Shown: one piece after another, positions 1,231-19,809 of the stretch
How positions within the stretch are numbered: the stretch's first letter is position 1
Layout of the letters: the number at the start of each line of letters is the position of its first letter
Notes under the pieces: generated by a model
The model's database searches: none
Told to the model about the DNA's origin: nothing
Seen by the model: the letters and a program-made list of their open reading frames with translations, nothing else
Made by a program: the position numbers and the translations under genes
Source of the DNA: a virus
IMG/VR virus record: IMGVR_UViG_3300050821_002018
Span: 1 to 25,312 of that record
Reading direction: 5' to 3' (one strand)
Length of the DNA: 25,312 nucleotides

Positions 1231-3177
1231 TTAGCCAAATGCCGGGAAGAGAAGTCCATAGTTGTCAAGCGGCGGAGCCTTGGGACTAGTCATCGTGCTA
1301 CCGTGAGACTTCATAGTGGAACGCATGTCCCCGGAAGCTAGTGCAACAATTTGCTTGGCTTGTTCTTGGGTGGTCCCAGGAGCAAGCTGAACGTTCATAG
1401 AGACATGGGTAACATGCGGTGGGCCACCAAACGGTCCAAGGTGTTTTCCTGGCAAAGGCGCCCCTGGCGGAAATGTTCCCTTGTCGTAATTCCAGGGCCA
1501 TTCACTGCCATAAGCGTGTGAAGCCTTTAGTTTGTTTGCATAAGCTGCGCCATAATGCTGAGCCATCCAATTGTATGCTCCGGTGGCATCTGATTGCTGA
1601 CGCATGTTAATAGGAATTATTGCCATAAGCGGCCCAAGGGCATTTGCAATTGAGCTTATACCGGAAGCCAAAGCCAGCAATCCGCCAGCGGCACGCTCGG
1701 CAATAAGTAAGCTCGCAATAGCAGCCCTAGTTGACAGCAGCTTCTGAGCTAATCCCATGAATGCAAAATTATCTAATGCCATAAACGCCTTGGTTGTCAT
1801 GGTGAGTCCTGGCCCTATTTTACTGACTCCAGCCAAAACTCCAAAAAACTCAACCAATTTACCGAGAGCGAACCTGGCGGCCATAAACTCAGTGATGTGA
1901 ATGATTAGGTTTTCCCAATAAACGGCCGCATCTTTATGAGTGTTCAGATAATCTATCATGTTAGTCAGATGATTTGACCAGTCAACTAATTCCCTAGTGA
2001 ACAATGGAAGGGAATTTTTAAACAAAACCATGTCAAGGGTTTGCAGGTTGGTGATAAATCTTTGCAATGCCACAATGAAATCTTGATTTTGAAATACAGC
2101 AAAGAATCTTTCAAGTACCCCGCCAAAGGGCTTGCCAAGAACATCCATTTGCTTGAATTGCTCTTGGATAAATCTCATTTGCTTTTGAACGTCAGGTTGA
2201 TACAGAACGGCATCAAATTGAGTTGCCTGTTTCCCTAGGCCAGACTTAAGGGCATTGACGAAGTCCACCGGTTTCATGTGAGTCGCATCACTGGCCAGCA
2301 ATGTATTGAGTTTGCCCCAATCCAGTCTCCCGCCAGTTAATAAAGTGTTTCTTCCGCCCGACAGAATGCCCAAAGCCCCTAGCCCCTCGCGCTGCTTGGC
2401 CTGAGAGTGTCCGGTTAGCGTAGCCGCCCCAATAGCCCCAAGAAGAGTGTTTTCAATTGATGTGCCACCCTTGCCGCGCAAGAATCCGGTTTGCCCCATC
2501 ATGGCCAAAATAGTAAATGCCTGCTCAGTGTTCATTCCTAATGCGTGACCGAGCGGAATAAAATACTTGGCCTGAGTTATAGCTCTCTGAGGGGACTCAG
2601 AGGTTACATTGGTTAGCTTAACCATCCATTCAAGCATGTTCTTCATTTTGGTCGCGTCATACGCCTGGAACATGTGGGCGAACTGAACGCCATAAGAAAT
2701 CGCTTCTGTTGGCTGGAAGTCCCTGCCCTTAGCTTTGGCCTGAAAGTATTCGACATCGGCAAACTGAGCGAGGGCCGGAAACAGTGCCTTGAGTCTTGAG
2801 TAGGAACCCAACCCACCTTGAGCCGCTGTGGTCATTTCCTGAGCAATAGTTACACCACTCTGAGCAGTAACGTCTGCCATGTGCATGGCCATGTTGGACA
2901 AGTCTTCCAACTGTCCCTTGGTGGCATTTACCGTAAGCCCAACGGACTGCATGGCCAATTGAAACTTAGCGGCGCTCATAACTCCATAGCCTATAATCGC
3001 TCCGCCCATAAGGGCGAAGACTCCGGCCACTGACGTTCCCAGGTTTCGGAAACGAAGGGCGGCGGCCTCGGCCTTGGCTATCCCGGCGTTTAAGCCCTTG
3101 ACCTGATTATTGATGCCCTGAAGACCTGTTGCGCCGAAGCGCATGGCGACTGAGATCAGCCAGCGGTCTCCGAACAT
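1231..3177 (-). CDS. Tail tape measure protein
   Basis: This 648-aa protein sets tail length and is ejected ahead of DNA. The N-terminal 45 residues are helical and Ala-rich, followed by a hydrophobic stretch at about 47-68 (VAGVFALMGGAIIGYGVMSA). Residues about 100-260 match the conserved core of TP901-type tape measures (MTTAAQGGLGS, then ALFPALAQFADV, later GKGGTSIENTLLGAI). A second long hydrophobic region lies at about 480-523, and the C-terminal 100 residues are Gly/Pro-rich. The start is taken at the ATG at 3177 rather than the TTG one codon earlier, because GGAG lies 6 nt upstream of it, formed from the end of the preceding gene. At about 0.15 nm per residue the tail would be roughly 95-100 nm (inference). 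Confidence 0.9.
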   Translation of the reverse strand: MFGDRWLISVAMRFGATGLQGINNQVKGLNAGIAKAEAAALRFRNLGTSVAGVFALMGGAIIGYGVMSAAKFQLAMQSVGLTVNATKGQLEDLSNMAMHMADVTAQSGVTIAQEMTTAAQGGLGSYSRLKALFPALAQFADVEYFQAKAKGRDFQPTEAISYGVQFAHMFQAYDATKMKNMLEWMVKLTNVTSESPQRAITQAKYFIPLGHALGMNTEQAFTILAMMGQTGFLRGKGGTSIENTLLGAIGAATLTGHSQAKQREGLGALGILSGGRNTLLTGGRLDWGKLNTLLASDATHMKPVDFVNALKSGLGKQATQFDAVLYQPDVQKQMRFIQEQFKQMDVLGKPFGGVLERFFAVFQNQDFIVALQRFITNLQTLDMVLFKNSLPLFTRELVDWSNHLTNMIDYLNTHKDAAVYWENLIIHITEFMAARFALGKLVEFFGVLAGVSKIGPGLTMTTKAFMALDNFAFMGLAQKLLSTRAAIASLLIAERAAGGLLALASGISSIANALGPLMAIIPINMRQQSDATGAYNWMAQHYGAAYANKLKASHAYGSEWPWNYDKGTFPPGAPLPGKHLGPFGGPPHVTHVSMNVQLAPGTTQEQAKQIVALASGDMRSTMKSHGSTMTSPKAPPLDNYGLLFPAFG

Positions 3178-3180
3178 CAA

Positions 3181-4320: not shown

Positions 4321-4776
4321 TTATAGGGGCTGGCGAGACTGACAGCGGAAGTCAAGCCTGATCTCGATTGCCGAGTCCTTCTTGGCCGTACCGGCAGATT
4401 GCATGCGTAGCTCTGCGCCAGAGTACAGGAAAATATCCACAGAGCCATCATCATCAACGGTCGTTTCCGTGATGGTGAAATACTTCTGCGTTTGACCTTG
4501 ATGGTACAGGGCCTCCTGCACCGCTTCAAAGTTGTCCGCAAGGGCGTTGTTGCGGGCAATGGTAATTGTGCCCTTCCACCCTGCGCGGTCGGTCTTAAAC
4601 TTATCGTAACCCTGCGTCGAAATTGGTTCAATGGTGATGTCTTTCGTGATCGGAGAGGCCTCCAGGTCAAGAACATCGCCGCCGAACGGTACGGGCAAGT
4701 TTGTGGTGTTATCCACTATCAATATCGAACGCTGAATGCCCGTATTGAATCCGAAGAATCCCGGTCCAAAAGACAT
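4321..4776 (-). CDS. Tail tube protein
   Basis: This 151-aa protein follows the sheath gene, as contractile-tail tube proteins do. It opens with a Gly/Phe-rich segment (MSFGPGFFGFNTG), as does the LysM protein further left. The body is beta-rich with alternating hydrophobics: QRSILIVDNTTNLPVPFGG, WKGTITIARNN, QKYFTITETTVDDDGSVD, and a closing SAIEIRLDFRCQSRQPL. The size and strand pattern fit the hexameric tube fold of P2 FII and related proteins, although no signature motif is decisive. A GGAG lies 11 nt before the ATG. The gene is 22 nt downstream of the sheath stop. Identification depends mostly on gene order. Confidence 0.8.
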   Translation of the reverse strand: MSFGPGFFGFNTGIQRSILIVDNTTNLPVPFGGDVLDLEASPITKDITIEPISTQGYDKFKTDRAGWKGTITIARNNALADNFEAVQEALYHQGQTQKYFTITETTVDDDGSVDIFLYSGAELRMQSAGTAKKDSAIEIRLDFRCQSRQPL

Positions 4777-4797: not shown

Positions 4798-6453
4798 TTA
4801 GAGTTGCGGAGGGGTTTGGCTAACCGTAACTCCGGTGCCGCCCTGCAGAGTGATGTAAAGGATTCTGATTACGCCGAGGTAGCGAACGAGAACCTGAACA
4901 TTACAAATGCCCTGAGCGATACTCGAGGGGGTGTTGTTGGTCAGGTCGCAAGTTGTGTTAAACTCGTCAATCTGGGGTTGGCCACCGTTGGGAATCAAGC
5001 CATCCAGGAAGTTGTCGAAGGCGGCCTTGATCGCAGCGCGAGTCGGGTCGTTCGGCTGAATGCTTTGATTCTGGCCAACGAACGGTCCGCCAATTTGCTG
5101 AAGTGCTTGAGACAAGAAGGCCGTCATGCGGATAACCGGGATGTAATTGTTAGGGTTGCCAGAGCCAGCCATCGTTACGTCATTGAAAAACCCGAAGGCG
5201 CCATTGTTGAGCGGCATCTGATTCGTGATCGAACAAATACCATTCGTGGTGAGCGCAGCCAAGGCGTCCTGAGAGCGGGGACCGAGGATTGATTGTTCGG
5301 TTCCCTCCACGCTCGAGGCACTGGCCCCGGTCGTGTTATAGGGCTGATTGATCGGCGACTGGTAAGCCGGGAGACCTCCAATGATGCCAGCGGCCTTGCC
5401 CATAGGCGAGACATATCGATTGTAGCCCTGAACGGTGTCGAAGACGTATATGAAGTCCTTGCAGCAGACCATGTTGGTATCCACTGCGCCAACCGTGAGA
5501 CGGTCGGTGAAGGCTGCGGCGTCAGTCGTTCCCTTGGGAACGGTCGTGAACCCCAGGGCGGCATTCTGTGCGGCCACAAACGAAGAGATCGTCGGGACCG
5601 AAACAAAGTTGTCGTCCAGGCCACAGATGACCAATTGGAAGAAGGGTGTACCGGCCAGGGCATTCATACCGGTCAACGTATCGGCCGAGCCAAGAAGCTC
5701 TGCCGGAGAGACCGTGCTCGAGCCGTCTGCTCCGCCGCTTGCGCTAGCTACAGTCGCCAACACCGGGATTGCGCTCGAAGAGCCAGCCGAGGCGACTACC
5801 CACTGCGAGGCAATGGAGTTGGGCGCCGTGCCGTTGATCGCCGCGAGGGCGTTGGCCTTAAACACCGTGGCAGAGTAAGCTCCGCCAGGCGATGAATAGC
5901 CAATGATGTTGTTGAACACTTCCGGTCTCGCATTGCGGGGCGGGAAGATCGTCACGCGAAGGACCGGCGAAACCGAGGAGGTGCCGGACACAAGGTCAAT
6001 GCGCGCTCCGGCTACATTGTCTCCAGGGGCGGCGGTGCCTGCGCCGGGGCCATTCGGAAGCGAGCCGGTAGACTGGAAGGTAAGCGTAAGGACGGTGGCC
6101 GGAACGGCATCTGGAAGCACAATCGTGGCGGCCGTGTCAGCGCCATTCGTAGCTCGAACGCCAATCATGTTTCCGTCTTCAACGAGCGACATCAACATCT
6201 CCTGAACGAGGGAGAAGTTGTAATTGGTCGAGTTGAAGGTCGAGGCGCCAATGGTGTCGTCACCAAATGCCGCAAAGATTTGCGCCGCAGACCCGATAAC
6301 CACTGGAACCCCTACGGGTCCGTAGTTAGCCGTGCCAACAAAGGCGTTAACGGTGGTATTAACATAGGGTGCAACCCCTTGCTGCGGATTCTGTACGTTG
6401 ACATACGCACCCGGAACAACAAGATTGCTTGCACCTAAGTTGGTGGTAGGCAT
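4798..6453 (-). CDS. Contractile tail sheath protein
   Basis: This 551-aa protein forms the sheath around the tube and identifies the particle as a myovirus. The N terminus has the usual sheath opening: LVVPGAYVNVQNPQQGVAP, then VNAFVGTANYGPVGVPVVIG (a 'goal of passing through polar insertion' strand pair) and NYNFSLVQEMLMSLVEDG. The middle is an Ala/Gly/Ser-rich variable region. The C-terminal domain carries PNNYIPVIRMTAFLSQALQQ, and the end is a beta pair (CNVQVLVRYLGVIRILYITL) that normally interlocks adjacent subunits. AGGGAG lies 7 nt before the ATG, within a small inverted repeat. Codon use is strongly biased, leaving long open frames on the other strand that are not genes. Confidence 0.92.
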   Translation of the reverse strand: MPTTNLGASNLVVPGAYVNVQNPQQGVAPYVNTTVNAFVGTANYGPVGVPVVIGSAAQIFAAFGDDTIGASTFNSTNYNFSLVQEMLMSLVEDGNMIGVRATNGADTAATIVLPDAVPATVLTLTFQSTGSLPNGPGAGTAAPGDNVAGARIDLVSGTSSVSPVLRVTIFPPRNARPEVFNNIIGYSSPGGAYSATVFKANALAAINGTAPNSIASQWVVASAGSSSAIPVLATVASASGGADGSSTVSPAELLGSADTLTGMNALAGTPFFQLVICGLDDNFVSVPTISSFVAAQNAALGFTTVPKGTTDAAAFTDRLTVGAVDTNMVCCKDFIYVFDTVQGYNRYVSPMGKAAGIIGGLPAYQSPINQPYNTTGASASSVEGTEQSILGPRSQDALAALTTNGICSITNQMPLNNGAFGFFNDVTMAGSGNPNNYIPVIRMTAFLSQALQQIGGPFVGQNQSIQPNDPTRAAIKAAFDNFLDGLIPNGGQPQIDEFNTTCDLTNNTPSSIAQGICNVQVLVRYLGVIRILYITLQGGTGVTVSQTPPQL

Positions 6454-6488: not shown

Positions 6489-6725
6489 TTACTTGACAGC
6501 GCCGGGTAGCGCCGCTCGGTCTCTCGTATCAGGAGAAACCGGGTCTTTGGGTGCTTCAACCGCCTTGGGGGCGGCGTCAACGACGGCATTACGCCGTATA
6601 ACCTTCTTTTGATAGTGCGGGTCGTCTGCGATCTTCTCGGCATCATCGCCAGTAACGACATCGCCCTTTTCGTATGAGCGCCCATTCAGGCGGAAGCCCG
6701 CATCACGCACAACGTACTCGAACAT
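6489..6725 (-). CDS. Small protein of the neck/sheath junction, unknown function
   Basis: A 78-aa charged protein is encoded between a tail-completion-like gene (1 nt upstream) and the sheath gene. The first 45 residues look folded (MFEYVVRDAGFRLNGRSYEK then GDVVTGDDAEKIADDPHYQK); the rest is an Ala/Pro-rich tail. The folded part loosely recalls small proteins with a 'FluMu-type' N-terminal domain that often precede sheath genes in Mu-like phages, but the similarity is faint. No membrane segment or signal is present. Function is not known; a role at the head-tail junction is inferred only from position. Confidence 0.7.
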   Translation of the reverse strand: MFEYVVRDAGFRLNGRSYEKGDVVTGDDAEKIADDPHYQKKVIRRNAVVDAAPKAVEAPKDPVSPDTRDRAALPGAVK

Positions 6726-7577
6726 CTAAGAACCTCCAGTGTAGATCGGATTAGGGTCTATCCCGGTGATCGGAATAGATTCGACCGCAGTGCCTGTGGT
6801 CGTGGCGACGGTGGCGTACTCTGCTTCTAACAGAGCTTCCCATACGTACAAACTATAGGATGACTGAGAGTCATCATTCCATCCAGGCTTTGCCCAGCGA
6901 ACCCAAACATACGAGAGGTCTGGGGCGGTTAGCATAGGGGATGGATAGGTGGGGGCTAAGAGGTTTTCTAGAAGGGCCCCGATCTGGTTTCGAATTGGAG
7001 CGTTTGCCGCCCAAACTTTCACAGAGATGGGGCACATTGTACGGCGCATTTCTGCGATCATCGTACAGTTTCCACCTATGCCGCACCGCATGGTGGGTGC
7101 TCCAGTTACCGTTGCCACCGGCCCTGAGGCAGAGGCGCTTATCCCGGAAATGGATTGGTTGGTAATAGACAGGGCCACGGCAGTGGCCACGCTGTCAAGG
7201 GTGTCATTGGCCTGCGTTTGATAATAGCAGTCATTGCGAGACCCATTGGGAAATGTGTGGATATTGTATCCACCGGCTGCAACTCCGCCAAAGGTAAGGG
7301 TCCAGGTATTAGAATTCCTCAAGACCTGTACCGTTAATGTCACCGGAGGGTCAATCGAGGTAACCCAGTGAGGCTTACGTGAAGTGCGATTCTGGGCGGC
7401 CTTGGGGATGGGAAATATAGAAATCTGAGCCTGGTATTGACCAAGGATTTCAGACAGTGATTGTCCAAACGGTTGGCCGACTCCAACTTGCCCAGGAGGA
7501 AGACCCACCGAGTTGGCCTGCATAATGCCTAGAACCTCGGTCTGTATCAGAGTGCAGACCTGATCAAGACTCGGCAT
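6726..7577 (-). CDS. Tail completion / neck protein, putative
   Basis: This 283-aa protein lies between the receiver gene and the sheath block. The N terminus is helical (MPSLDQVCTLIQTEVLGIMQ), which resembles the start of tail-terminator proteins that cap the tail before head joining. A central beta domain (PPVTLTVQVLRNSNTWTLTF, HTFPNGSRNDCYYQTQANDT, then VATAVALSIT) looks like an insertion of the Ig- or baseplate-like kind. Residues after 180 (MIAEMRRTMCPISVKVWAAN, later LSYVWVRWAKPGWND) return to a mixed alpha/beta pattern with a tail-terminator look. Function is inferred from place and pattern, and a general structural role is safer than a named one. Confidence 0.65.
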   Translation of the reverse strand: MPSLDQVCTLIQTEVLGIMQANSVGLPPGQVGVGQPFGQSLSEILGQYQAQISIFPIPKAAQNRTSRKPHWVTSIDPPVTLTVQVLRNSNTWTLTFGGVAAGGYNIHTFPNGSRNDCYYQTQANDTLDSVATAVALSITNQSISGISASASGPVATVTGAPTMRCGIGGNCTMIAEMRRTMCPISVKVWAANAPIRNQIGALLENLLAPTYPSPMLTAPDLSYVWVRWAKPGWNDDSQSSYSLYVWEALLEAEYATVATTTGTAVESIPITGIDPNPIYTGGS

Positions 7578-7578
7578 T

Positions 7579-7941
7579 TTACACCTGCTGGGATTGAATG
7601 TATTCTATCTCTGCGGCTATCTGCTCGGCAGAGATGGGCTTTGTTAGAGTCCTAACGCCAGCAGCACGAAGCGGCTTAATAGTAGAATCTTGAGAATTCG
7701 ATGTGATAACAAGAACATTCTTCACCACCCCCCTCTGCTTTAGGTCGAGAGCAACATCTTTCCCACTGCCTGGAACCATGATGACATCCAATACGGCAAG
7801 GTCTGGCTTAAGCTCTTCGCATAGCTGCGAGGCAGATCGGGCGCTCGTCGCGCAACCAACAATCTTGCAACCAGCCATTTTAAGGTACTGGTTAAGCCTT
7901 CCGCGCATAATCACCGAATCGTCGGCATAGATCGCCGTCAT
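7579..7941 (-). CDS. CheY-like response regulator, receiver domain only
   Basis: This 120-aa protein is a complete stand-alone receiver domain. Starting from the ATG at 7941 the canonical residues are all present: the acidic pair D7-D8 (TAIYADDSV), phospho-acceptor D52 (LAVLDVIMVPG), the switch Thr T80 (VLVITSNS) and Lys K101 before Pro (LTKPIS). The length matches CheY and there is no output domain. Receivers of this type accept phosphate from a histidine kinase; no kinase is present here, so a host kinase would have to serve (inference). The ATG shares its A with the stop of the 40-aa membrane protein gene (TGATG), and AGGAAGG lies upstream. It is an unexpected gene among neck and tail genes. 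Confidence 0.93.
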   Translation of the reverse strand: MTAIYADDSVIMRGRLNQYLKMAGCKIVGCATSARSASQLCEELKPDLAVLDVIMVPGSGKDVALDLKQRGVVKNVLVITSNSQDSTIKPLRAAGVRTLTKPISAEQIAAEIEYIQSQQV

Positions 7942-8063
7942 CAATTAGCCTTCCTGATTGTAAGCTTAGCCACAACCCAAGCCGAAAGGTGCCAGCCGAA
8001 GCCTATTACGAAGCCAACGGCAAGCAGAAAGAGAAAGTATTCCCATGACCAATGAGGTTGCAT
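7941..8063 (-). CDS. 40-aa single-span membrane protein
   Basis: A short frame fills the space between the neck gene and the receiver gene exactly. Its ATG at 8063 follows the neck gene TAA directly, and its TGA overlaps the receiver ATG by one base (TGATG). The product begins MQPHWSWEY, continues with a hydrophobic span (FLFLLAVGFVIGFGWHL, residues about 10-26) and ends in a basic tail (KLTIRKAN), which suggests an inward-facing C terminus by the positive-inside rule. It is rich in aromatic residues. Tight coupling on both sides supports it being real. Function is unknown; holin-like, regulatory or receiver-partner roles are all possible. Confidence 0.75.
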   Translation of the reverse strand: MQPHWSWEYFLFLLAVGFVIGFGWHLSAWVVAKLTIRKAN

Positions 8064-8867
8064 TTATGTTCCCATCTTCTCGCAGATGCAGATATACCCA
8101 CTGAAACCGGTGGCCTCGCTCGTGTAAACCGAGGCGGCCTTATACCGGTCTGAGTTGGGGAAGTTGAAGTTGTCAAACTCTTGAATTTGAATTCCGGTCA
8201 ACAGCGGGACATAAATCACGAAGTGCTCGCGATAGAATGCCGTTGGAATCTTAATGTCGCTGCCATCTCGGATGCGGTTAAGCTGAGACAAGCCAGCCGG
8301 GACTCCAGCCAAAGATGGAAGCTGATTTTGAGTAAAGAAATACCCTCCATCCTGGAGGACCATTCCAAACTCATTTTGCTTATCAATACCCATGTATCCG
8401 GGCGCAGCAATCCATCCAGACTGAGGCTGCTGCCCACTCTGTCCACCAAGGGGTTGGGGACGAGTTACTGACACGGTAGCTTCTGCTCGGCAAACTATTG
8501 TCGAATAGGTGTAGTTGGTTGGTCTAATCTGGGCGACAATGAAGATGTTTCCCTCTTCGGATTCATAACCGGTCTCTACCAAAATGTCGCCAAGCTGTAG
8601 GATTCTGTTGTCGCAAATGGCTATCTTGACTTGAAGGTTGAACGGGTCGTTCTCAACGAGATTCTTGCCAGCAGGCTTGATATACATTGGGAAATTAGTA
8701 GCAAGAGGGGTCCCGTCAAATACAGAGCCGCCAGAGTTTTCATTCAGGCGATAGATGCTGTATTGAGAGCCGGTGACCGCAGCGGCGGCACCGTTGCCCT
8801 GCTGGACGGCAGAGTCAATGATGGGCATAGTGCCAAGCCAGGGGAGAAAACCTGGAGCATCACTCAT
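8064..8867 (-). CDS. Neck / head-closure structural protein, putative
   Basis: This 267-aa protein is coupled to the upstream connector gene by a TAATG overlap. It is Gln/Gly/Pro-rich in the middle (QPLGGQSGQQPQSGW) and otherwise beta-rich: YSIYRLNENSGGSVFDG, PFNLQVKIAICDNRILQLGD, GNIFIVAQIRPTNYTYSTIV. The C-terminal part (HFVIYVPLLTGIQIQEFDNF, then SDRYKAASVYTSE) resembles a second beta domain. The segment 'LQLGDILVETGY' is typical of barrel proteins that close the head or carry DNA-contact loops. No catalytic motif is seen. The role as head-closure or adaptor is inferred from position between capsid and sheath. Confidence 0.65.
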   Translation of the reverse strand: MSDAPGFLPWLGTMPIIDSAVQQGNGAAAAVTGSQYSIYRLNENSGGSVFDGTPLATNFPMYIKPAGKNLVENDPFNLQVKIAICDNRILQLGDILVETGYESEEGNIFIVAQIRPTNYTYSTIVCRAEATVSVTRPQPLGGQSGQQPQSGWIAAPGYMGIDKQNEFGMVLQDGGYFFTQNQLPSLAGVPAGLSQLNRIRDGSDIKIPTAFYREHFVIYVPLLTGIQIQEFDNFNFPNSDRYKAASVYTSEATGFSGYICICEKMGT

Positions 8868-9694
8868 TATGCAACACTACCGGAGCGACCGGAGCCTCCA
8901 AACATTTGGACATATTCCATTCCGCCGATCATCTGGGCCAACTGCGTGCAATACTCTTTATAGAGCGCACGGCGCCTGGGCAATTCCTTGTCTTGGAATG
9001 AAGCCGGGCCAGCCTGGGTTAGCCAAAGACTCAAGCCCTGCTGAGTCATATTCATGGCCAAGTAATCTAAGATCGCCACATACCCATAAAGGGTTACAGA
9101 TGCTCCGGTTACAACATTCTGGAACGTCCCAACCACTGGACTCTGCGTGCCGGGATTCTCAACTGAAAGGTTTGTGGTTCCGGTTACGCTTTCGGTGAGC
9201 GTAAAGGCAAAGTTTCCCGGGGCCGCAACGTACACTTCGGCAAAGTATGGCGGCATAAACTGCGGGGACATTAGGTCGGCTGGCATAACCCCGGTTGCCG
9301 CAAACTGAATCGGAGAGACAACCTGGCTGATTGCGTTAGCTGAATTCAAAGCTATGCTATACAGCGGAGAAGAGTCTGGCGGGTTGACGGGGTTTGGGGG
9401 AATGGAGAAATCTTGCGATCTAACGGTGTAGGAAGCATTGTAATTCGTGTTGTTGTAATTTAATGTGAAGTTTAGGACATCTTCAACGGTGGGATTGCCC
9501 TGAATTTTATAGGCACCAAGTGAGTAGCCGGTGATCAACTGCTCTTCAGGCATGGTCATGTTGTTCATTCGGTACTCGAGGTCTTCCCGATAGAACGTAA
9601 AGCGCCAGCCGTATAGACGGCCACCATACGAGTTTCCAGAAAACGGAACACCAAGATGCCGCCTGATTGCGGTCTTCATCGTTTGTGGTAACAC
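8867..9694 (-). CDS. Head-tail connector-type structural protein, putative
   Basis: This 275-aa protein is encoded directly after the capsid gene. The GTG at 9694 is favoured as start because GGAGG lies 8 nt upstream; an ATG five codons later is an alternative. The N-terminal part is basic and aromatic (RRHLGVPFSGNSYGGRLYGW, then YREDLEYRMNNMTMPEEQL). The middle is beta-rich and Asn/Pro-rich (SIPPNPVNPPDSSPLYSI). The end is helical (FQDKELPRRRALYKEYCTQL, then QMIGGMEYVQMF), which recalls connector proteins that end in a helix packing on the portal. The identity is inferred from position; the frame itself is secure. Confidence 0.65.
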   Translation of the reverse strand: MLPQTMKTAIRRHLGVPFSGNSYGGRLYGWRFTFYREDLEYRMNNMTMPEEQLITGYSLGAYKIQGNPTVEDVLNFTLNYNNTNYNASYTVRSQDFSIPPNPVNPPDSSPLYSIALNSANAISQVVSPIQFAATGVMPADLMSPQFMPPYFAEVYVAAPGNFAFTLTESVTGTTNLSVENPGTQSPVVGTFQNVVTGASVTLYGYVAILDYLAMNMTQQGLSLWLTQAGPASFQDKELPRRRALYKEYCTQLAQMIGGMEYVQMFGGSGRSGSVA

Positions 9695-9774: not shown

Positions 9775-11268
9775 TTAAAATGCACTCGCGCACTGAATCA
9801 TCACGCCACGCTTGTAGCGCATGTAGTCAGACGACAGGATGATCGTCGGGTTGGACGATTTATCCGTGCGCGGAACGAAATCGCCCTGGTAGTCATACGC
9901 CATTTTCACAACGTCGCCCAGGGTGTCAATCGCGGCCAGGGTGCGGAATTTAATCCGGTCAACCCAGCGGGTATCAGCTACGTCTCCAATGCCAGCAACG
10001 ATGCTGGAGGCTTCCTTCGCGCCCTTGAAGGGGTGCTCGGCGATAACGTCTTGCCCGAAGACAAGGCCGTGACGCAGTTGGAACTGACCTGCAGCAGCCG
10101 GGGCCGCGTAGGTCGGAACCTGGGTCGCTTCCGTGAACTCAAGGCCCCAACCGGCAGCAATCACGCCGTCTTGGAAGACCGGCGAAGAATGCCAACGTGT
10201 AGCCGTCGCACGCTCGAAGCCCTGGTCCTGGTAGACCTGAGCAAGCAGCGTCGAGTCAATGGCGCAGCCGTAAAGACCATTGGCCAGTTTCGGAACGCCA
10301 CGACGCTTCAGAATCGAAGCGGCATAGGGGAACATCTGAGTCGGGTTCAGGATGTTGGTCGAAGCCATCGCGTAGGCGGTGGTGATCATATTCCCAGAAC
10401 CGTTCAGCGGACGCACAACGAAGGAGCCGTCCTTGAACACTGGGTTCAGGGGCGAGCCAACGGTGGGCGGGTTAGCTGCGAGCGATGCGCCGGGGTCAAG
10501 AGCGACAATGCGATCACCGGTGGACCACGTTTCCGAGGCCGCGAGTGTCAGCGTGCCGCTTTGACCGAACACCTGATTGCCACCAACCATGTAAGATTGG
10601 CTGGGCGAGTCAAGCGAGACCGCAGTTACGGTCGTCAACGACAGAATGTCGCCGGTAGAGTTGGAGACAATCGCGACGTTGATCGGGTTGCTCGAAGAGA
10701 CGGCAGACGGCGTCTTATAGTTGGGCAGGTCCGCAGACGGGAACTGAGCCAAGAAGCCGTTGCAGTTGTCGGCATGGAAGCTGGTCGAGGTCGCCCCGGC
10801 AAGAGCGAACGTGTCGCCCGAGTCATACGCCTGCCACAGACGGTTGGCGCAAACCAACTCGAGGGAGTTACCGGCCTTCTGGCCGATGGCGTAGATGTTG
10901 TCGAGGTAGACGCTGGCGATCAGCGCCGTGTCGCCGGTAACGAAGGTCGGGAGGAATCCCGGCCAACGATTCAGCGTAGCGGTCCACTGCTCAAACGAAC
11001 GAACATCGGCGGTCATGCCGTTGTCAAGGCCCGTATTAAGCGCCGGATTGAGAGGGTTAATGTTCGGAGCGATGAGGGCACGCGCAGTGAAGGTTTTAGT
11101 TTCACCGATATTCGCGTCGAACCAGTCATCAGCACTGACATTTTTGGGGCGAAAAACGTAAGACGGAAGCATGGCTTCCCGGATTTTTCTTTCCAGGAAG
11201 AGTTTCTGCTCCATTACGTCAATCATTGGCAAGGGAAAACCATTGCCCCCGCCGCCATTGATAGGCAT
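9775..11268 (-). CDS. Major capsid protein (HK97 fold)
   Basis: This 497-aa protein forms the icosahedral shell. It follows a scaffold gene, as expected. The N-terminal region (DVMEQKLFLERKIREAMLPS, then FDANIGETKTFTARALIAP) has the N-arm and extended-loop look of P22 gp5-like or related coat proteins. A beta-rich insert at about 200-265 (SNSTGDILSLTTVTAVSLDS, then TLTLAASETWSTGDRIVALD) resembles a small I-domain. The rest returns to the P and A domains (YAMASTNILNPTQMFPYAAS, RGVPKLANGLYGCAIDS, HGLVFGQDVIAEHPFKG) and ends with KRGVMIQCASAF. The ATG has GGAG 9 nt upstream. Fold assignment is by pattern; the family subgroup is uncertain. Confidence 0.88.
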   Translation of the reverse strand: MPINGGGGNGFPLPMIDVMEQKLFLERKIREAMLPSYVFRPKNVSADDWFDANIGETKTFTARALIAPNINPLNPALNTGLDNGMTADVRSFEQWTATLNRWPGFLPTFVTGDTALIASVYLDNIYAIGQKAGNSLELVCANRLWQAYDSGDTFALAGATSTSFHADNCNGFLAQFPSADLPNYKTPSAVSSSNPINVAIVSNSTGDILSLTTVTAVSLDSPSQSYMVGGNQVFGQSGTLTLAASETWSTGDRIVALDPGASLAANPPTVGSPLNPVFKDGSFVVRPLNGSGNMITTAYAMASTNILNPTQMFPYAASILKRRGVPKLANGLYGCAIDSTLLAQVYQDQGFERATATRWHSSPVFQDGVIAAGWGLEFTEATQVPTYAAPAAAGQFQLRHGLVFGQDVIAEHPFKGAKEASSIVAGIGDVADTRWVDRIKFRTLAAIDTLGDVVKMAYDYQGDFVPRTDKSSNPTIILSSDYMRYKRGVMIQCASAF

Positions 11269-12449: not shown

Positions 12450-12995
12450 TTACTTCAGGAGTCCCGAGCCGCCGAGAGCGTTAAACACAACCGTGCCACC
12501 GTGACAGTTAACCGAAACGAGCGGAGAGCCAGAAGTGGCGATCTCATTCTCAACCTGGAACATCGAGTTACCGTTATACGGGAAGTCGTACACTCCAGAG
12601 GCCGTAATCCAGCCGGTGATATTGGCGACGTTATACAGGTTGGCAACGGTACTCGCCTGAGTTACCGCCATCGTATCTGCAAACGCAGAAGCTGCCGTTA
12701 CAGAAACTTCACAATATCCGCTTTGAACGGCGGTGTTAAGGTTCACAATCGTAACTGCGGTCGAGACCGTGTTAAGGTTGAAGGCATTGTACCAGGAGTT
12801 GGGGTAACCAGCCGACAGACCGAGGTCTGGGCTCGGAGCACCAACGGCGGTTGCAACTGCAGTCGGGGTCGCGGCAGGGGCCGTGATCGTCGCAGCAGGA
12901 GCGGGCGCCCCACCCATTTCGGGAGCGAAGTGGATGTTTACGCCGACACCGAAGAAGGCAGCGGCGACGAACAGTCCGATGAAAAGACGTTTCAT
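12450..12995 (-). CDS. Exported or membrane-anchored beta protein, unknown
   Basis: This 181-aa protein begins with a classical export-type N terminus: basic MKR and a hydrophobic core (LFIGLFVAAAFFGVGV). No clear AxA site follows, so it may be an anchor or be cut later in the Ala/Pro/Thr-rich linker (residues about 30-55). The C-terminal domain is beta-rich, with two Cys in a layout like the exported domain of the glycosidase gene: SGYCEVSV early and VSVNCHGG late, suggesting one disulfide and secretion (inference). It lies 3 nt after the portal stop and has AAGGA before its ATG. An exported protein between portal and scaffold is odd. Confidence 0.7.
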   Translation of the reverse strand: MKRLFIGLFVAAAFFGVGVNIHFAPEMGGAPAPAATITAPAATPTAVATAVGAPSPDLGLSAGYPNSWYNAFNLNTVSTAVTIVNLNTAVQSGYCEVSVTAASAFADTMAVTQASTVANLYNVANITGWITASGVYDFPYNGNSMFQVENEIATSGSPLVSVNCHGGTVVFNALGGSGLLK

Positions 12996-12998
12996 TGT

Positions 12999-14639
12999 CT
13001 ATCCTTTTGAAGACGAAGAGGCGTTCGCGCCACTTCCAGGAGGTGTAGATGGTTTATTTGGGTCAATCGGTGGAGGCGTTACCTCGCCGCTGCCCTTGAT
13101 GTCTTGATATGGACCGTGAAGTCCAATATCAGATGCAAGCTTAGCGCCAGCGGCGTCATCACTAACCAACTCCTTGGGATTTTGCAGTGAACCACCACAG
13201 GCAAGTTGAAGGCCGGTAACGTGGTCGAGCAACTCCTTGCCTTGGAGTACATTATCACTGGCCCACTCGAGGAGCCTTTTTGCGCCATCAGGTATATCCC
13301 CGATTTCAAATCCTGGGATATTCAGAAGGCCAATTGAAATTCCGTAAAGCGTTAGGGATATAAGCTTAAGGTAGCCGTAATCCCCATAAGGGTAACGCTG
13401 ACGGCGGATAAGTCTTTGCAGAGGCTTGCCGCTCTTGTCTACTGCGGGACCAGAATCAACACCCTTAAGGTGTTCGGCTCGCATTTTAGAGCCACCGAGA
13501 ATCTCCATGATGTACTCTCGCACATCTTGAACAAACTCTCTCTGCTCCTTTAATCCCTGAGCATTGATCTCAAGAACCTTTGCATCCGCATACTGTCCCT
13601 GCCCAACTAGGACATTGGTTGGACCGCTCACCGGACGACCCTTGTCGTCATCGTGAGTTGAGGTTCCGCCTAGCGCGCTAGAGCTTCCGCCTGGCCCAAC
13701 GGTTAATTCGTTGTTACCGGTGTAGTCTAACTCGCCGAGGCGAATGAAGAGGCGCGGGTCTGCCGTGTACCGAAGGCCACGACCGGCTTGAGAGAGGGCG
13801 TAGTCTGCAGCAATCAAAAGATTGCGGGCTGGCCACCAAAGGCACATCCCGTCTTGATCGCGGCGCTTACCGCCAAAATTCTTGATTACAAAGAATGGAC
13901 AAACACCCTTCCAGCCGTGAGGCTCAACCGAATGCTGCTTAAAGGAAATGATGTCTCCATACTTATCCTTCGTTCCCAGATCAATATAGGTCCTGTCTGG
14001 CAATGGGACATATTCGGTAATGCTGTATGAATCAATCAGGTAGCGATACCAAAAGGTATCTTCTCCCTTGTTCTCATCATCGTCTAGATTGGCACCCTTT
14101 TTAGCTGCAGCTTCCGGGGAGATGGGATAGGTAACCATGAGTCCCGAGGGGTTTGCTTGATTCCTCGAGACGAATACCTCTTCGCACCACTTACCGGGAA
14201 GAACGTCGTAAATCGGGAGGGCGCAATCGTCTGCCTTGTGAATGACGACCGCCACCGAACCAATGACTCCGTCCTCATATATCTCTTGCATGACGCCTTC
14301 AAGGTGAAGGTCTCTTGCTAGATCATCGAGAGCAGACTCAGCTTTGGCGTCTTCCTCGCCCTGCTTGGATACAACCTTGATCGAAGGAAACTGCTCGTCT
14401 CCGAACAGACCGGCGAAGGTGTCCTGTGTAACTTCCCATGCAAACGGGAGATCAGTGTCGGGACGCCGCTCCTTGAGTTGGATGTATCTCTTGCCGGGGG
14501 CGCTATCTTGATCAAACGACCAGTCAAGGTCTTCGTATAGCTCACCCGTCAGTTGGCGTCCAAGGGCCTCGTGTAGACGAAATCTAGGCGAGGCCCCGCG
14601 AGGAAGCTTAAGACTGTCCTGTAATTCTCTGAACGCCAA
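12999..14639 (-). CDS. Portal protein
   Basis: This 546-aa protein forms the dodecameric ring through which DNA passes. It starts with TTG, with AAGGAG 8 nt upstream and no ATG nearby. The N-terminal half contains portal-like segments (LERRP-type turn in KERRPDTDLPFAWEVTQDTF, then EGVMQEIYEDGVIGSVAVVI and YDVLPGKWCEEVFVSRNQ). The stem and helices follow (ARNLLIAADYALSQAGRGL, then EQREFVQDVREYIMEILGG and RMRAEHL-like KMRAEHLKGVDSGPAVDKSG). The C-terminal 35 residues are Pro/Ser/Gly-rich and disordered. It is most like SPP1 gp6-type portals, though the subgroup is not certain. It lies far from terminase, with about 10 kb of other genes between. Confidence 0.85.
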   Translation of the reverse strand: MAFRELQDSLKLPRGASPRFRLHEALGRQLTGELYEDLDWSFDQDSAPGKRYIQLKERRPDTDLPFAWEVTQDTFAGLFGDEQFPSIKVVSKQGEEDAKAESALDDLARDLHLEGVMQEIYEDGVIGSVAVVIHKADDCALPIYDVLPGKWCEEVFVSRNQANPSGLMVTYPISPEAAAKKGANLDDDENKGEDTFWYRYLIDSYSITEYVPLPDRTYIDLGTKDKYGDIISFKQHSVEPHGWKGVCPFFVIKNFGGKRRDQDGMCLWWPARNLLIAADYALSQAGRGLRYTADPRLFIRLGELDYTGNNELTVGPGGSSSALGGTSTHDDDKGRPVSGPTNVLVGQGQYADAKVLEINAQGLKEQREFVQDVREYIMEILGGSKMRAEHLKGVDSGPAVDKSGKPLQRLIRRQRYPYGDYGYLKLISLTLYGISIGLLNIPGFEIGDIPDGAKRLLEWASDNVLQGKELLDHVTGLQLACGGSLQNPKELVSDDAAGAKLASDIGLHGPYQDIKGSGEVTPPPIDPNKPSTPPGSGANASSSSKG

Positions 14640-14677
14640 GACGGAATCTCCTTATGGTGCCAGAAAGTAAAGGGAGT

Positions 14678-16663
14678 CTAGAAGTGGACTGAGCCGCGAA
14701 GTATGATGTCGAAGTTTGAGGAAAGCGTGAAGCCGTGAAGCATGGTAAACACGCTAGAGGGCCACGGATTCGCTCCGCTTGCAGATAAGCCAAACCTGAA
14801 GGCTGGCACTGAACCAGTGTCTGTTACATAAGCTCCATACTGTTGAAGTTGAACGCAGACGGCTATCGCCTGAGCAGACGGCTCGGTGGCACAATTAATT
14901 GAGCCGGGTCCGACTGATCTCAACCGAAGCAAGTCGCCCATCATCAAGCACGAACCAGATGATGTTCCACAGGTCCCTGCGCCATTTCCAATGCCCGGCG
15001 AGATATTTACACCGCCGCTACCGTTAAGGAGCGCTGCAGTGGGAATGATCACGCTGATCGGGTGGTTGATTGATGGCAGGGCGGCGTCTTCTCCGAGGTC
15101 AGCAAATCCCAACATTGGGATTCCTCCAACCTGGACATTGTCACCCTTGTTGGCCGACTGAGAGTCGTAGGAGTAGGCCAGACAGTCAACTAATCCGTTG
15201 TAGGCATCGAGTGGCCCACTGGGAGAGGTCCAATTCCATGCGCCTCCTTCGATCACGCATCCCGTATCGGTGTTGACTGTTACGACATGACAATCGCCAG
15301 AGCAACCAGAAAGAACGGTGCCCTCCATGTGGAAGACTCCATTGACCCAAGGAGCACTATAGCCAGTGCCTCCCCCGTGCGGTCCAACCGATATGGGAGG
15401 ACTGTGCCCAGACGGGCAATTAGTTGGCGGAGAGTACACGGCTCCGTTGGCGCAGTGAACCAGGAATGTTCCCGTTGCATTAGTCGCGATATTGGTTATC
15501 AGCAGGTCTGCATCATTTCCGGTCGGGAAGGTGATGAGGTGACTGACATTACCAATAATCGTAGAGCTATTCGGGTCAACCGACATCCCAGAAATTACGG
15601 CATTAACAATCGGGTCCGGTGCAGCAGAGGCTCCACTGTATACCTGAATGTTATCCCAGCAGTAGGCGCCAGCGGGACAGGCTCCCGGCGTAGCCGTTGG
15701 GCTTGGCGTTGGCGTTGGCGTGGGAGTTGGCGTGGGAGTTGGCGTCGGTGTAGGCGTAGGAGTCGGAGTAGGTGTGGGCGTCGGGCTCGGAGTAGGAGAA
15801 GGGGTGGGGGTGGCCGACGAAGCCGGTGCGAACAAATCCAGAACGGTATCCTGATGGGCAAAGCTATTGGGGGCCGTCATTGTCATGCTTGCGGAGTACG
15901 AAGCAAAAGAACTGAGATTTGTGTCGCTATAAAGATTGGTCGTAAACGTAGCAGAGCTAGCGCCCAAAACAAGAGTCGTAGGAGACACCGAGCTAACGGT
16001 CTGCCCTCCGGTACCCGTCATCAATAAGGCAACCGGAAGGTCACCAAGATCGGTTGGAATCAGGGACGACGTAGAGAATGGGCCGGACCCAGAAATAGAT
16101 GTCTTAGCGAATTGATGCTGGTCAAACGGTGAGGTTTGATTAACCTGCGTTACGTCTATTGTGAACGCGAGACACTGTCCGTTGGCCACGGAGTCGGCAT
16201 AGGTCCAGCTTGTTCCATCCGAACCGGTGGAATACTTCCAATACTCTGCGTACGGGAAGTTGGTGCTGGTCGAAGAGTCTTCAGTCGCGAACCCTGCCGG
16301 TGCCGTGAAGGCTCCGGTGCTATTAGAAATCAGATAGATGACGATGGCATCGCCAGCCGCAGGCTGTGATGCGAGAGCGGCGGTAGTGTTCGACGTTGAG
16401 CACGACCCAGAGGCGTTGGTCGGCGTTTGAGCCATTGTCGGCAGCGGAGCCGGAGTTGGAGTTGCCGTAGGCGTCGGGGTTGGTGAAGGCGTCGGGGTTG
16501 GGCTAGGCGTTGCCGTGGGTGAAGAGGTTGGGGCCGGGGTGTGGCAGTTGTTGCCACGGCGGCAACAGCAATGTTTCTGCGCCACTTGGGCGTGACTTAG
16601 CTGGGTCCCAATTCCAATACAAAGAGCAAGGAAAAAGAGCGCTGAGACAATTGCCTTCTTCAT
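14678..16663 (-). CDS. Secreted multidomain protein with Pro-Thr linkers
   Basis: This 661-aa protein has a Sec signal peptide (MKKAIVSALFFLALCIGIG, likely cut after SHA at residue 25). Next come a Cys cluster (HCCCRRGNNC, 31-40), a Pro-Thr linker (about 42-76), and a beta domain at about 85-280 with GDAIVIYLISNSTGAFTAPA, like the N-terminal domain of the 727-aa protein. A second, near-perfect Thr-Pro linker (about 284-326) leads to a C-terminal domain (330-661) with many Cys and the segments SINHPISVIIPTAALL, GDLLRLRS and QLQQYGAYVTDTGS, which recall a secreted bacterial domain of unknown role. It is coupled to the upstream gene by TAATG. Function unknown; polysaccharide binding or cleavage is a guess. 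Confidence 0.75.
   Translation of the reverse strand: MKKAIVSALFFLALCIGIGTQLSHAQVAQKHCCCRRGNNCHTPAPTSSPTATPSPTPTPSPTPTPTATPTPAPLPTMAQTPTNASGSCSTSNTTAALASQPAAGDAIVIYLISNSTGAFTAPAGFATEDSSTSTNFPYAEYWKYSTGSDGTSWTYADSVANGQCLAFTIDVTQVNQTSPFDQHQFAKTSISGSGPFSTSSLIPTDLGDLPVALLMTGTGGQTVSSVSPTTLVLGASSATFTTNLYSDTNLSSFASYSASMTMTAPNSFAHQDTVLDLFAPASSATPTPSPTPSPTPTPTPTPTPTPTPTPTPTPTPTPTPSPTATPGACPAGAYCWDNIQVYSGASAAPDPIVNAVISGMSVDPNSSTIIGNVSHLITFPTGNDADLLITNIATNATGTFLVHCANGAVYSPPTNCPSGHSPPISVGPHGGGTGYSAPWVNGVFHMEGTVLSGCSGDCHVVTVNTDTGCVIEGGAWNWTSPSGPLDAYNGLVDCLAYSYDSQSANKGDNVQVGGIPMLGFADLGEDAALPSINHPISVIIPTAALLNGSGGVNISPGIGNGAGTCGTSSGSCLMMGDLLRLRSVGPGSINCATEPSAQAIAVCVQLQQYGAYVTDTGSVPAFRFGLSASGANPWPSSVFTMLHGFTLSSNFDIILRGSVHF
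15686..15814 (-). repeat. Thr-Pro linker repeat (second tract)
   Basis: About 43 residues of nearly pure Thr-Pro pairs (with a few Ser-Pro) are encoded here. The 6-nt unit varies at third positions, so it is maintained as protein and is not a recent slippage product. It separates the two large domains of the 661-aa protein. Confidence 0.85.
16436..16540 (-). repeat. Pro-Thr linker repeat (first tract)
   Basis: About 35 residues of Pro/Thr/Ser/Ala repeats follow the signal peptide and Cys cluster of the 661-aa protein. Such linkers are common between modules of secreted bacterial enzymes and adhesins. Confidence 0.8.
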
Positions 16664-17544
16664 TAGTACGCTTCAGCCTTTACACTACAGTTACCATAAA
16701 GGGTGTCGTTAACAGTGGTTGAACCTTCGGCGTAACACGCCATCGTAAAGGTTGCTCCATTGGCCACCAACAGGTGAGCCTGAGCGTGCTGACTTAATCC
16801 AGGAGCGGCAACTGCGTTGTCTCCCCAGCCTGGGCCACCCATGAATGTATTTGTGAGAGGAGAGGTGGCGGTTTGACACTGACTTGCCGCATCAGTGGTA
16901 GAGTCCTCAAGGTTATACGTCGAAGACGAGGTGGCGCACATATAGTCAATTTGGGCTGAGTTGGTAGCCTTACTAAGGTCCATGTTAACCGTGAGGAGCC
17001 ACTCGTTGTTGGCTCCATTAGAGGTTGATGGGACAGTTATGGAGACATTTGAGCCAAGCTGAACATAAACCGTTGCGGTCGTTCCAGTTTGAACATTATG
17101 CTGGCCGGTCGAAGCGAAAATTGTTCCGCCACAAACCGGCACATTGGTTACAACGCTTGGGAATGACCCCGTATCCGAAACCGCGGCACCGCAGGCCGTA
17201 GCCGTAGCTGCGGGAGAAGGAGCAGCCGTACCGGTGCCGCCATTTGCAACTGAAATCGGTAGCGGAGGTGGAGTATTGGAAACAAAGCAATTGTAATTAG
17301 AAACCACTCCGTCGCCGCTAGAACCAACGGTATACCCATAAAAAGCACACGCAGTTGGGGCCGGTGTGGGGGAGCCGCAAGCAAAGGTCGTAGAGGATTG
17401 GGCCCCGCCATTGGTGACCGTATAGGACACCTTTTCGCATCCAGACTGCTGAGCTTGAGCGGCCTTGAAATGCAACCCGTGCGTTCCGGCGAGACCGCCT
17501 AAGATGGCGACGAACAGGGCTAAAGATACTAAAATCTTCTTCAT
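16663..17544 (-). CDS. Secreted protein with tail-fibre GGTG motif
   Basis: This 293-aa protein combines an export signal with a tail-fibre hallmark. The signal peptide is MKKILVSLALFVAILGG, cut probably after AQA (residues 29-31). Residues 36-95 hold two short Cys-containing repeats (SYTVTNGGAQSSTTFACGSP and YGYTVGSSGDGVVSNYNCF), which look like one ancestral unit duplicated. PISVANGGTGTAAPS (96-110) is the motif seen before the distal domain of many phage fibres. The C-terminal 170 residues form a beta domain (EWLLTVNMDLSKATNSAQI, then NGATFTMACYAEGS) with several Cys. AAGGA precedes the ATG. It could be a surface-displayed receptor mimic or fibre; the signal peptide argues against simple virion assembly. 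Confidence 0.75.
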   Translation of the reverse strand: MKKILVSLALFVAILGGLAGTHGLHFKAAQAQQSGCEKVSYTVTNGGAQSSTTFACGSPTPAPTACAFYGYTVGSSGDGVVSNYNCFVSNTPPPLPISVANGGTGTAAPSPAATATACGAAVSDTGSFPSVVTNVPVCGGTIFASTGQHNVQTGTTATVYVQLGSNVSITVPSTSNGANNEWLLTVNMDLSKATNSAQIDYMCATSSSTYNLEDSTTDAASQCQTATSPLTNTFMGGPGWGDNAVAAPGLSQHAQAHLLVANGATFTMACYAEGSTTVNDTLYGNCSVKAEAY

Positions 17545-17552
17545 GGTATTCC

Positions 17553-17984
17553 TTACAGGGCGGCCCCAGGAGCAGCATTACAATGGACGTTGCCGGTGAT
17601 CACCGGGGAGGTTGCCCCGCTAAGGACGAGAGCTAGAACCGATTCTCCACTCACAGGAACTGTGATGTGTTTTCCAGCGGCCGTAATGGTTTGCGTAACC
17701 GTGCCCGGTACGCCCATGTCGGCGGCTCCACTAACGGCGTAATATGTCGTAGTGGCATCTGCGTTAACTTCCAGCGTAATGGTGCCGGAGCCCATCGTTG
17801 AGCCGGAGTTTACGGTGACCACACAGTAGCTCATGCCGTCAATGTTGTTAATCGTAACCGTGCCATTAGCTGCGAAAGAAAACGGTTGCGTGGGAAAAGA
17901 CGTATAGGGGACTTGTGCCGAAGCGCCCAGCGGGAGCAGGGTCAGGGCAAATCCCAATAGAATAGCCTTAGCCAGATTTAACAC
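17553..17984 (-). CDS. Secreted stand-alone copy of the glycosidase N-terminal domain
   Basis: This 143-aa protein is a signal peptide plus a single domain. The GTG at 17984 is chosen as start: GGAG lies 8 nt upstream and the product then begins with a clean signal peptide (MLNLAKAILLGFALTLLPLG, cut after ASA at 23). Longer frames upstream run deep into the glycosidase gene. The domain matches residues 29-137 of the upstream glycosidase at 79 of 109 positions (72% identity by hand alignment, no gaps). Two Cys are shared (MSYCVVTV and TGNVHCN). The gene overlaps the glycosidase stop by 17 nt. It is a tandem partial duplication; the domain's ligand is unknown, with binding to glycan or the cell surface inferred. 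Confidence 0.8.
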   Translation of the reverse strand: MLNLAKAILLGFALTLLPLGASAQVPYTSFPTQPFSFAANGTVTINNIDGMSYCVVTVNSGSTMGSGTITLEVNADATTTYYAVSGAADMGVPGTVTQTITAAGKHITVPVSGESVLALVLSGATSPVITGNVHCNAAPGAAL

Positions 17985-19809
17985 TAGTAACGCTCCAGGG
18001 CGGAATCGAGATTGTAAAATTAGTCGTCCAGGCAGGCAGGGTTGATGCCTGAGGGCCATCCCAGGTCGGCGTGGCACTATTCGTTAGGTCGAACAATGTC
18101 TTATAATACTGCGTGATTGTTCCACCAGCACCGGTTGTGTGGCTGTCTATTGACACAGTGACAATGTGAGCCTGTGTCTGTGATCGGTTAACGATCATCA
18201 GAGAAACGCCAGAGCTTTCAGAGCAGGAGTACTCTGCCAGGTCTCCGGTGGCATCCGTGAGGGTGCTCTTGATAATGTTTATGCAGCCCTGCATGAAGCT
18301 TCCGGCGACCTCGAGTCCTGCGCCAGGAGCTAATACCGTTCCAGCCGCAGGCTGCCCAGAAACACCGTTGCACGTTCCCGTGAGCGACGCGTTAGAAAGC
18401 GATTGAGAGCCGGTAAAGGTCAGCCATGCTCCGTATAGACCTGAGCGAGCGTTAATCGCCTGGCAATTCGCCGTTCCTGCGTGAAACTCTAAGACAGAAA
18501 CCCCATCCTGGGCCGCCTCTCCAACCATCTCTGCGTTGAAGAGAGCCTGGACAATGCTCTGAGTCTGGTAGGAGTAGCTGGAGGGGATGGTACTGTATTC
18601 GCCGACAATCATCTTGGCCGATGGGCTCCCGCTCGCCGCTATGTCAGCCTTAAGCTGAGTCATAAAATTAGCGGTGAAGTCACCTGCCGGAGCCGCCAGG
18701 GCGCCAGCGTCTGTTTCGTTGCCAGGAGTCGTCCAATAGTAGTGGGCGTCTGCACAGTCAAACGTCTGCGCCATGACCACGCCATCCCAGGCTGCGCCTT
18801 GAGGGCCAGACTGTTGGGGGTCGGCATCTAAGCAGACAGAAATCCCGGAGTCTTGAGCCAGCATAGCCGTGCGGAAGGTCGAGAACTGAGCCTTATAGCA
18901 ACTATCGTTTGTATTCGGAGTACAAGATAAGGTCAGGGCACCGGAGTTGTATTGCTCATTGTCTACGGTCCAGTAATGGCATTGGGTATCTGGACACCCA
19001 TTCGTTACGACAATGTCGTTGATCATGCCCTGAACATCGGCGGTCGTATTCCCGCCGGTGCAAGCGGCATTGGTGGCCTCATTGACGATGACATGGCCAA
19101 GCCTTGTGCCCAAAAGGGCAACAAAGGCGGCGTCAGTATTGACCGGGGTTTGGCTAATGAGGCAAGACCCTGAGCCGCAGGTATTCGTTGACCAGTGCAG
19201 GCAATTGCCAACCGTGCCCTGCGGATACCGCATAGAGGTGAGGCCGATTGTTGAAGCCGCCGTCGCCACTGATGCCCCAGTAAATGGGCCAGAGCCAGAC
19301 AAGAGGTTCCCGCCAATTAGATCAGGGGAAGCCGGGCCGTAGGTTTGAGTGGGATGAACGACCAGCGTCGAAAGAGAAGCGCTCCCCATGAGGGAGAATC
19401 CCGGAGCCGAGTTACAATGAACGTTCCCGGTGATAGAGGGCGATGTGGCTCCGCTAAGAGTCAAAGCTAATGTAGCCTCACCAGAAACCGGGATGGTCGC
19501 ACGAGCCCCGGCAACCGATATAGACTGAGAAACTGAACTAGGGGCCCCCATGTCTGGGGTTCCGCTAACCGGGAAGTAAGTTGTAGAGGCATCTGAGTTT
19601 ACGCCAAAGGTAATTGACCCAGAACCCATTGTTGAACTGGAATTCACCGTCACCACGCAGTAACTCATTCCGTCAATATTGTTGACCCGATAGGTTCCAT
19701 TGGCGGAAAAAGAAAATGGCTGGGTGGGGAGGTGTTGCCCCTGAGCAGAGGTGATTATCGGAGAAACCAGCAGGACCAAACCAAACAGGAGTGTCCAGAA
19801 TCTAACCAT
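17968..19809 (-). CDS. Secreted clan GH-A-type glycoside hydrolase with N-terminal beta domain
   Basis: This 613-aa protein has a signal peptide (MVRFWTLLFGLVLLVSPIIT, cut near SA at 22), a beta domain at about 29-137, a TIM-barrel-like catalytic region at about 155-500 and a C-terminal beta-sandwich (about 515-610). Barrel landmarks are MRYPQGTVGNCLHW (193-206), acid/base Glu E285 in YWTVDNEQYN, the ADAHYYW strand (354-359), and likely nucleophile E404 in KMIVGEYST. The 119-residue spacing between the two Glu and the 'R-Y-P-x-G' strand fit retaining enzymes of the GH39/GH51/GH79 sort. The exact family and substrate are unknown. Expected action is on plant, soil or bacterial polysaccharide outside the cell (inference). 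Confidence 0.8.
   Translation of the reverse strand: MVRFWTLLFGLVLLVSPIITSAQGQHLPTQPFSFSANGTYRVNNIDGMSYCVVTVNSSSTMGSGSITFGVNSDASTTYFPVSGTPDMGAPSSVSQSISVAGARATIPVSGEATLALTLSGATSPSITGNVHCNSAPGFSLMGSASLSTLVVHPTQTYGPASPDLIGGNLLSGSGPFTGASVATAASTIGLTSMRYPQGTVGNCLHWSTNTCGSGSCLISQTPVNTDAAFVALLGTRLGHVIVNEATNAACTGGNTTADVQGMINDIVVTNGCPDTQCHYWTVDNEQYNSGALTLSCTPNTNDSCYKAQFSTFRTAMLAQDSGISVCLDADPQQSGPQGAAWDGVVMAQTFDCADAHYYWTTPGNETDAGALAAPAGDFTANFMTQLKADIAASGSPSAKMIVGEYSTIPSSYSYQTQSIVQALFNAEMVGEAAQDGVSVLEFHAGTANCQAINARSGLYGAWLTFTGSQSLSNASLTGTCNGVSGQPAAGTVLAPGAGLEVAGSFMQGCINIIKSTLTDATGDLAEYSCSESSGVSLMIVNRSQTQAHIVTVSIDSHTTGAGGTITQYYKTLFDLTNSATPTWDGPQASTLPAWTTNFTISIPPWSVTSVKSG

Follow-up and report, generated by a model that had tools for sequence, protein, structure and literature searches.

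A stand-alone receiver protein is encoded at a conserved site among the neck genes of a group of divergent phages

CheY-like genes have been reported in the late modules of the Alteromonas phages V22 and A5, where they were called auxiliary metabolic genes (PMC10579305, PMC7289586). Stand-alone receivers are encoded by V22 (gp30), A5 (gp11), H4/4 (gp44), R8W, R9Y1-3, PB15 and XX1924 and, like the receiver described here, lie in the late region; they differ, however, in being found beside tail-fibre chaperone or lysis genes rather than neck genes, and in being 125–153 amino acids in length. The receivers of H4/4, PB15, XX1924 and R9Y2 match PF00072 and have no recognised output domain. In each of these four phages a single-span membrane protein is encoded directly before the receiver, and in PB15 and R9Y2 an M15 peptidase or lysozyme is encoded directly after it (the arrangement occupies L217 4696–5818, L255 1742–2836, L256 2187–3240 and L257 3639–4959); the four loci possibly represent a receiver-containing lysis cassette. 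Divergent receiver (cREC) domains that are linked to NAD/ADP-ribose enzymes have also been described in jumbo phages, and these resemble the protein studied here in being phage-encoded receiver folds with conserved aspartates (PMC7824862). Our locus, unlike those of the cREC domains, encodes an ordinary receiver and has no NAD/ADP-ribose enzyme as a neighbour. A search of the open-licence literature turned up no account of a receiver that is fixed in a neck module.

The window, by which we mean the whole 25,312-base stretch that was analysed, is an IMG/VR virus record whose recognisable genes are encoded on the minus strand. On that strand, which the earlier note did not specify, the receiver gene runs from an ATG at 7941 down to 7579, where it ends in a TAA stop; the plus strand across 7579–7941 contains stops and no open frame. 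There is an alternative start at an in-frame TTG one codon upstream, but ATG 7941 is the better predicted start because an AGGAAGG Shine-Dalgarno sequence lies seven bases ahead of it. The product is a stand-alone receiver, that is, a single-domain response regulator of CheY/Spo0F size (120 amino acids), identified through PF00072, an AlphaFold2 model and homologues at the same site. An earlier note on this DNA had described a complete receiver with the residues D7, D8, D52, T80 and K101, and with the ATG counted as residue 1 these are exact. The match to PF00072 (E 3.3e-15) scores 56.6 bits, above the curated cut-off of 30.2 bits, and spans residues 6–112 of the 120, with no output domain, as the earlier note had also stated. 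The protein matches 48 distinct PDB sequences as well. Its AlphaFold2 model, which was built from seven homologues (mean pLDDT 94.9), has the full (βα)5 fold with five strands and five helices, and solved receivers in the PDB match this model at TM 0.80–0.89. By its profile score, its acid pair, Asp, Thr and Lys, and its fold, the protein is a member of the PF00072 family. CheY chains are among its best sequence and fold matches, and the fold matches to NarL-, DesR- and PhoP-type receivers are as good as those to CheY.

The surrounding genes form a structural operon. In order of transcription, all on the minus strand, the window encodes a portal protein (12999..14639; matched by the portals of Komagataeibacter phages phiKX1 and phiKX2, tblastn E 1e-22), a scaffold-like protein, the major capsid protein (9775..11268; 29% to the annotated coat protein of phiKX1 and 60–70% to those of L083, L084 and L085), a probable head-tail adaptor or connector (8867..9694; function by position), a probable head-closure (stopper) protein (8064..8867), a 40-residue membrane ORF (7941..8063) and the receiver. 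These are followed by a probable tail terminator (6726..7577; phrog_13532, role by position), a small protein (6489..6725) with ORFs of similar size at that place in L083, L092 and L177, the tail sheath (4798..6453; phrog_23, E 1.7e-26, and the phiKX1 sheath), a tail tube-like protein (4321..4776; phrog_12993, role by position) and the tape-measure protein (1231..3180; a weak PF10145 match, E 0.0027, and tblastn relatives). In all relatives the receiver is preceded by a homologue of the stopper-like gene. We consider this gene only a probable stopper because its AlphaFold2 model is moderate (pLDDT 73) and its Foldseek matches to the necks or stoppers of phages Chi, Douge, Pam3, 7-7-1 and T1, although consistent, are weak. 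In every relative the receiver is followed by a homologue of the tail terminator-like gene, and phiKX1 has one too. The distant relatives phiKX1 and phiKX2 share with the window its portal, coat, sheath and probable tail terminator genes, but the receiver is missing from the site. The earlier note's assignment of the gene to a late structural operon, among neck and tail genes, thus stood, whereas its description of that placement as unusual applies less well given the late-region receivers of Alteromonas phages, which are unrelated to these (PMC10579305, PMC7289586).

The receiver start overlaps the TGA stop of the 40-residue ORF (TGATG), with which the gene is translationally coupled, and a single base separates the receiver stop from the ATG of the probable tail terminator gene. 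The 40-residue ORF is predicted to span the membrane once (Kyte-Doolittle 1.94 over 19 residues) and has no Pfam match. It had no homologue among the related loci that were compared, and none beside the receiver in the six other lineages described below; a conserved membrane partner for the receiver was accordingly dropped, the ORF being peculiar to the window. The window has the first half of the Alteromonas arrangement, a membrane ORF and a receiver, but its relatives do not. Elsewhere on the minus strand, 24661–25312 encodes only the nuclease domain of the terminase large subunit (PF17289), in a gene that is probably cut off because its reading frame is open to the contig end. The stretch between portal and terminase (14678–19809) encodes several proteins whose N termini resemble signal peptides and which carry PTPTPSP runs; within this stretch, 17553–18077 and the start of 17968–19809 look like paralogues, and 20170–22353 encodes a 727-residue protein of short degenerate repeats (GSIT...) with no Pfam match.

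Relatives of the window were reached only through alignments of the capsid and sheath with phiKX1, which yielded about 200 related loci, including pieces of the same contig that overlap. Neither single-protein scans of viral contigs nor tblastn against phages, run with the receiver or its downstream neighbour, returned a hit. The window receiver had no close homologue in 50,697 phage records, and the neck protein alignments were too divergent, with insufficient conservation for scanning; a scan with three of the receivers returned no records beyond those already known. A search of 150 Acidisoma-group genomes found full-length host regulators and no receiver at this phage site, and the flanks of the large contigs, read for host assignment, gave none. 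Among the related loci, however, the interval between the stopper-like and terminator-like genes holds a receiver in the window and in six other divergent phages, making seven lineages on nine IMG/VR contigs (besides the window: L083, L085, L088, L092 (also L172, L174 and L175), L151 (also L162 and L171) and L177). The acceptor site is kept in all six. Absence from all related phages, which the earlier note had named as grounds for abandoning its proposal, is not what we found. That six further divergent phages carry the receiver at this very site is far beyond chance.

Across the lineages the receiver overlaps or lies close to its neighbours in the neck cluster. In L085, 3.9 kb separates the stopper gene from the receiver, which still abuts the terminator gene; the insert (12455–16344) carries tail-spike-like genes with a pectate-lyase-like fold (PF12708 just under the cut-off), and in the same phage a Prp cysteine protease (PF04327, E 1.9e-20) is encoded at 10878–11225, between the adaptor-like and stopper-like genes. 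Two other relatives, L091 and L178, have clear stopper homologues and no receiver, and no receiver at all was found in about 130 non-identical related loci (1.5 Mb). Each receiver-bearing record contains exactly one PF00072 match. No histidine-kinase ATPase domain (HATPase_c) was detected in 11 phage records (the window and ten related ones), in agreement with the earlier statement that no kinase lies nearby; several of these records are fragments, for which the absence is weak, and two are contigs of 64.5 and 128.9 kb. Any kinase acting on the receiver would thus have to be the host's.

The receiver and its neck neighbours appear to share a history. Pairwise identities of the receivers correlate with those of the stopper-like genes (Mantel r 0.72, p 0.006) and of the terminator-like genes (r 0.73, p 0.004), but not with those of the coat (r 0.08) or adaptor (r 0.23) genes; among the head genes themselves the correlation is 0.75. 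Between neck and head genes (L083, L085, L088, L092, L177 and the window) the Mantel r was 0.2–0.3, which is not significant. L083 groups with L177 in both the neck tree and the receiver tree, whereas in the head tree its partner is the window. The different histories of neck and head genes make the neck look like a recombining cassette, and the finding that divergence of the receiver tracks the neck genes, not the head genes, indicates that the receiver travels with this cassette as it recombines against the head genes. A phylogeny of the receiver, which the earlier note had proposed as a check, placed the seven phage receivers in one clade against 33 others (cellular, plus two from other phages) with support of 96/86; this drops to 73/72 once the longest branches are removed. 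H4/4 gp44 falls outside the clade. The simplest reading of these trees, though not proven, is one ancient acquisition of the receiver followed by some losses. Because support for the clade is only 73/72 without the longest branches, the receiver gene may instead have been replaced from host pools. The comparisons show that the receiver is not a recent capture.

Pairwise identity among the seven phage receivers is 24–44%. Invariant in all seven are D7, D8, G24, P46, D47, D52, M55, G60, A64 and K101, with T or S throughout at position 80. The least conserved elements are the kinase-facing helix α1 and the output elements α4, β5 and α5. Compared element by element with similarly divergent cellular receivers, the phage receivers are broadly alike, with α1, α4 and α5 weakly conserved in both, and we therefore rejected low conservation of these three helices as a sign of host-specific tuning. 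Only β5 differs, its conservation being far lower in the phage receivers (0.12, as against 0.27 in cellular receivers) because of the residue three before K101 (K-3). The equivalent of this residue in CheY is Tyr106, through which phosphorylation is coupled to the output face. In the seven phage receivers K-3 is T, V, F, T, L, V and V (Thr98 in the window), and thus non-aromatic in 6/7, as compared with 6/31 cellular receivers (Fisher p=0.002, a test in which the seven are related and count as one lineage, within which the position varies freely); H4/4 gp44, in contrast, has an aromatic residue at K-3. The alignment indicates that constraint on the aromatic switch residue is lost in the phage receivers. 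No phage-specific conserved surface was evident beyond the generic receiver positions.

These phage proteins share fold, size and catalytic residues with cellular single-domain regulators of the CheY, Spo0F and CcdB type but, unlike them, are fixed in a neck operon, have usually lost the switch aromatic and have no kinase gene found with them. The explanation that we favour, to which we give about an even chance, is that the receiver is a single-domain response regulator which one phage lineage has fixed in its neck module and makes late, and which drains or competes with a host pathway. Judging from its position in the operon, it would be made late in infection together with the neck proteins. 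D52 would then accept phosphoryl groups from host histidine kinases, phosphotransfer proteins or small phosphodonors, and the receiver would drain or compete with a host two-component or phosphorelay pathway at that stage. Conservation of the catalytic chemistry argues that phosphorylation is probably in use, and since the search of phage records detected no kinase, the phosphoryl groups probably come from a host donor or from a small phosphodonor. The residue that relays the signal to the output face varies among these receivers, so they would more likely serve by accepting, holding or passing on a phosphoryl group than by CheY-like motor binding; a phosphoryl drain or competitor would be more likely than a motor-binding CheY. 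The earlier note had put forward a decoy that drains phosphate from host kinases, mimicry of CheY and the timing of late functions, and of these three the decoy would fit best. A Spo0F-type phosphorelay intermediate or a phosphate sink would be compatible with loss of the switch residue. Weak conservation of α1, α4, β5 and α5 is what would be expected for host-specific partners, and cellular receivers show the same except in β5.

The persistent location of the gene within the neck cluster, and the co-inheritance of receiver and neck genes, would also fit an assembly factor that binds neck or tail-completion proteins and whose phosphorylated form gates head-tail joining, or a minor part of the virion. 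Linkage alone explains the co-inheritance, however; the same neck genes work without a receiver in L091, L178, phiKX1 and about 130 related loci, and a conserved surface peculiar to the phage proteins is missing, so that we regard such a role as unlikely. The late position of the gene raises instead the possibility of a timer that reads host state by phosphorylation and acts on a phage partner to control lysis or late expression, and the membrane ORF overlapping the receiver start, together with the single-span protein that precedes the receiver in H4/4, XX1924, PB15 and R9Y2 (a hydrolase following in two), points the same way. Yet in none of the other six lineages was the membrane ORF found next to the receiver, no recognisable lysis gene adjoins the receiver in any of the seven, and the only Alteromonas receiver in the tree, that of H4/4, lies outside the clade of the window; we therefore hold a timer to be rather improbable.

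Mimicry of CheY to change motility, as suggested in the earlier note, would mean altered flagellar switching or pilus motility. The CheY-like size and the CheY chains among the best matches are in keeping with such mimicry, but the other receiver types match the fold equally well, the aromatic residue is kept at K-3 in only 1/7 phage receivers and not in the window, and the gene lies in a phage structural operon with no HATPase_c rather than in a CheA kinase context. We consider mimicry of CheY very unlikely. A passenger gene that has no function and was captured recently or is decaying would account for the lack of close homologues among the 50,697 phage records and for the sister phages that have no receiver; this explanation, which we find scarcely credible, is already contradicted by seven lineages with the gene at one site, invariant catalytic residues and a good ribosome-binding site. 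Returning to the phosphoryl drain or competitor, we put forward, as a speculation that we think has a small chance of holding, the broader proposal that late stand-alone receivers are a recurring phage device, which here became fixed in the neck cassette and acts as a drain on a host phosphorelay, or as a timer of assembly or lysis that responds to the state of phosphorylation in the host, with neither the usual output switch nor a kinase of its own.

The receiver is a real, conserved phage gene. Stand-alone receivers in the late regions of phages were already known from Alteromonas phages, and what the present phages add is fixation in the neck module: a phosphoacceptor protein with intact chemistry is kept at one site among structural genes by phages whose contigs encode no recognisable histidine kinase. 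D52 alone separates the models, which makes the proposal easy to test. If the protein does drain or read host phosphorelays, it would be an instance of a virus using a bare receiver to interfere with two-component signalling. A conserved receiver at the neck site with an intact phosphate-accepting site suggests that these phages may interfere with host signalling late in infection.
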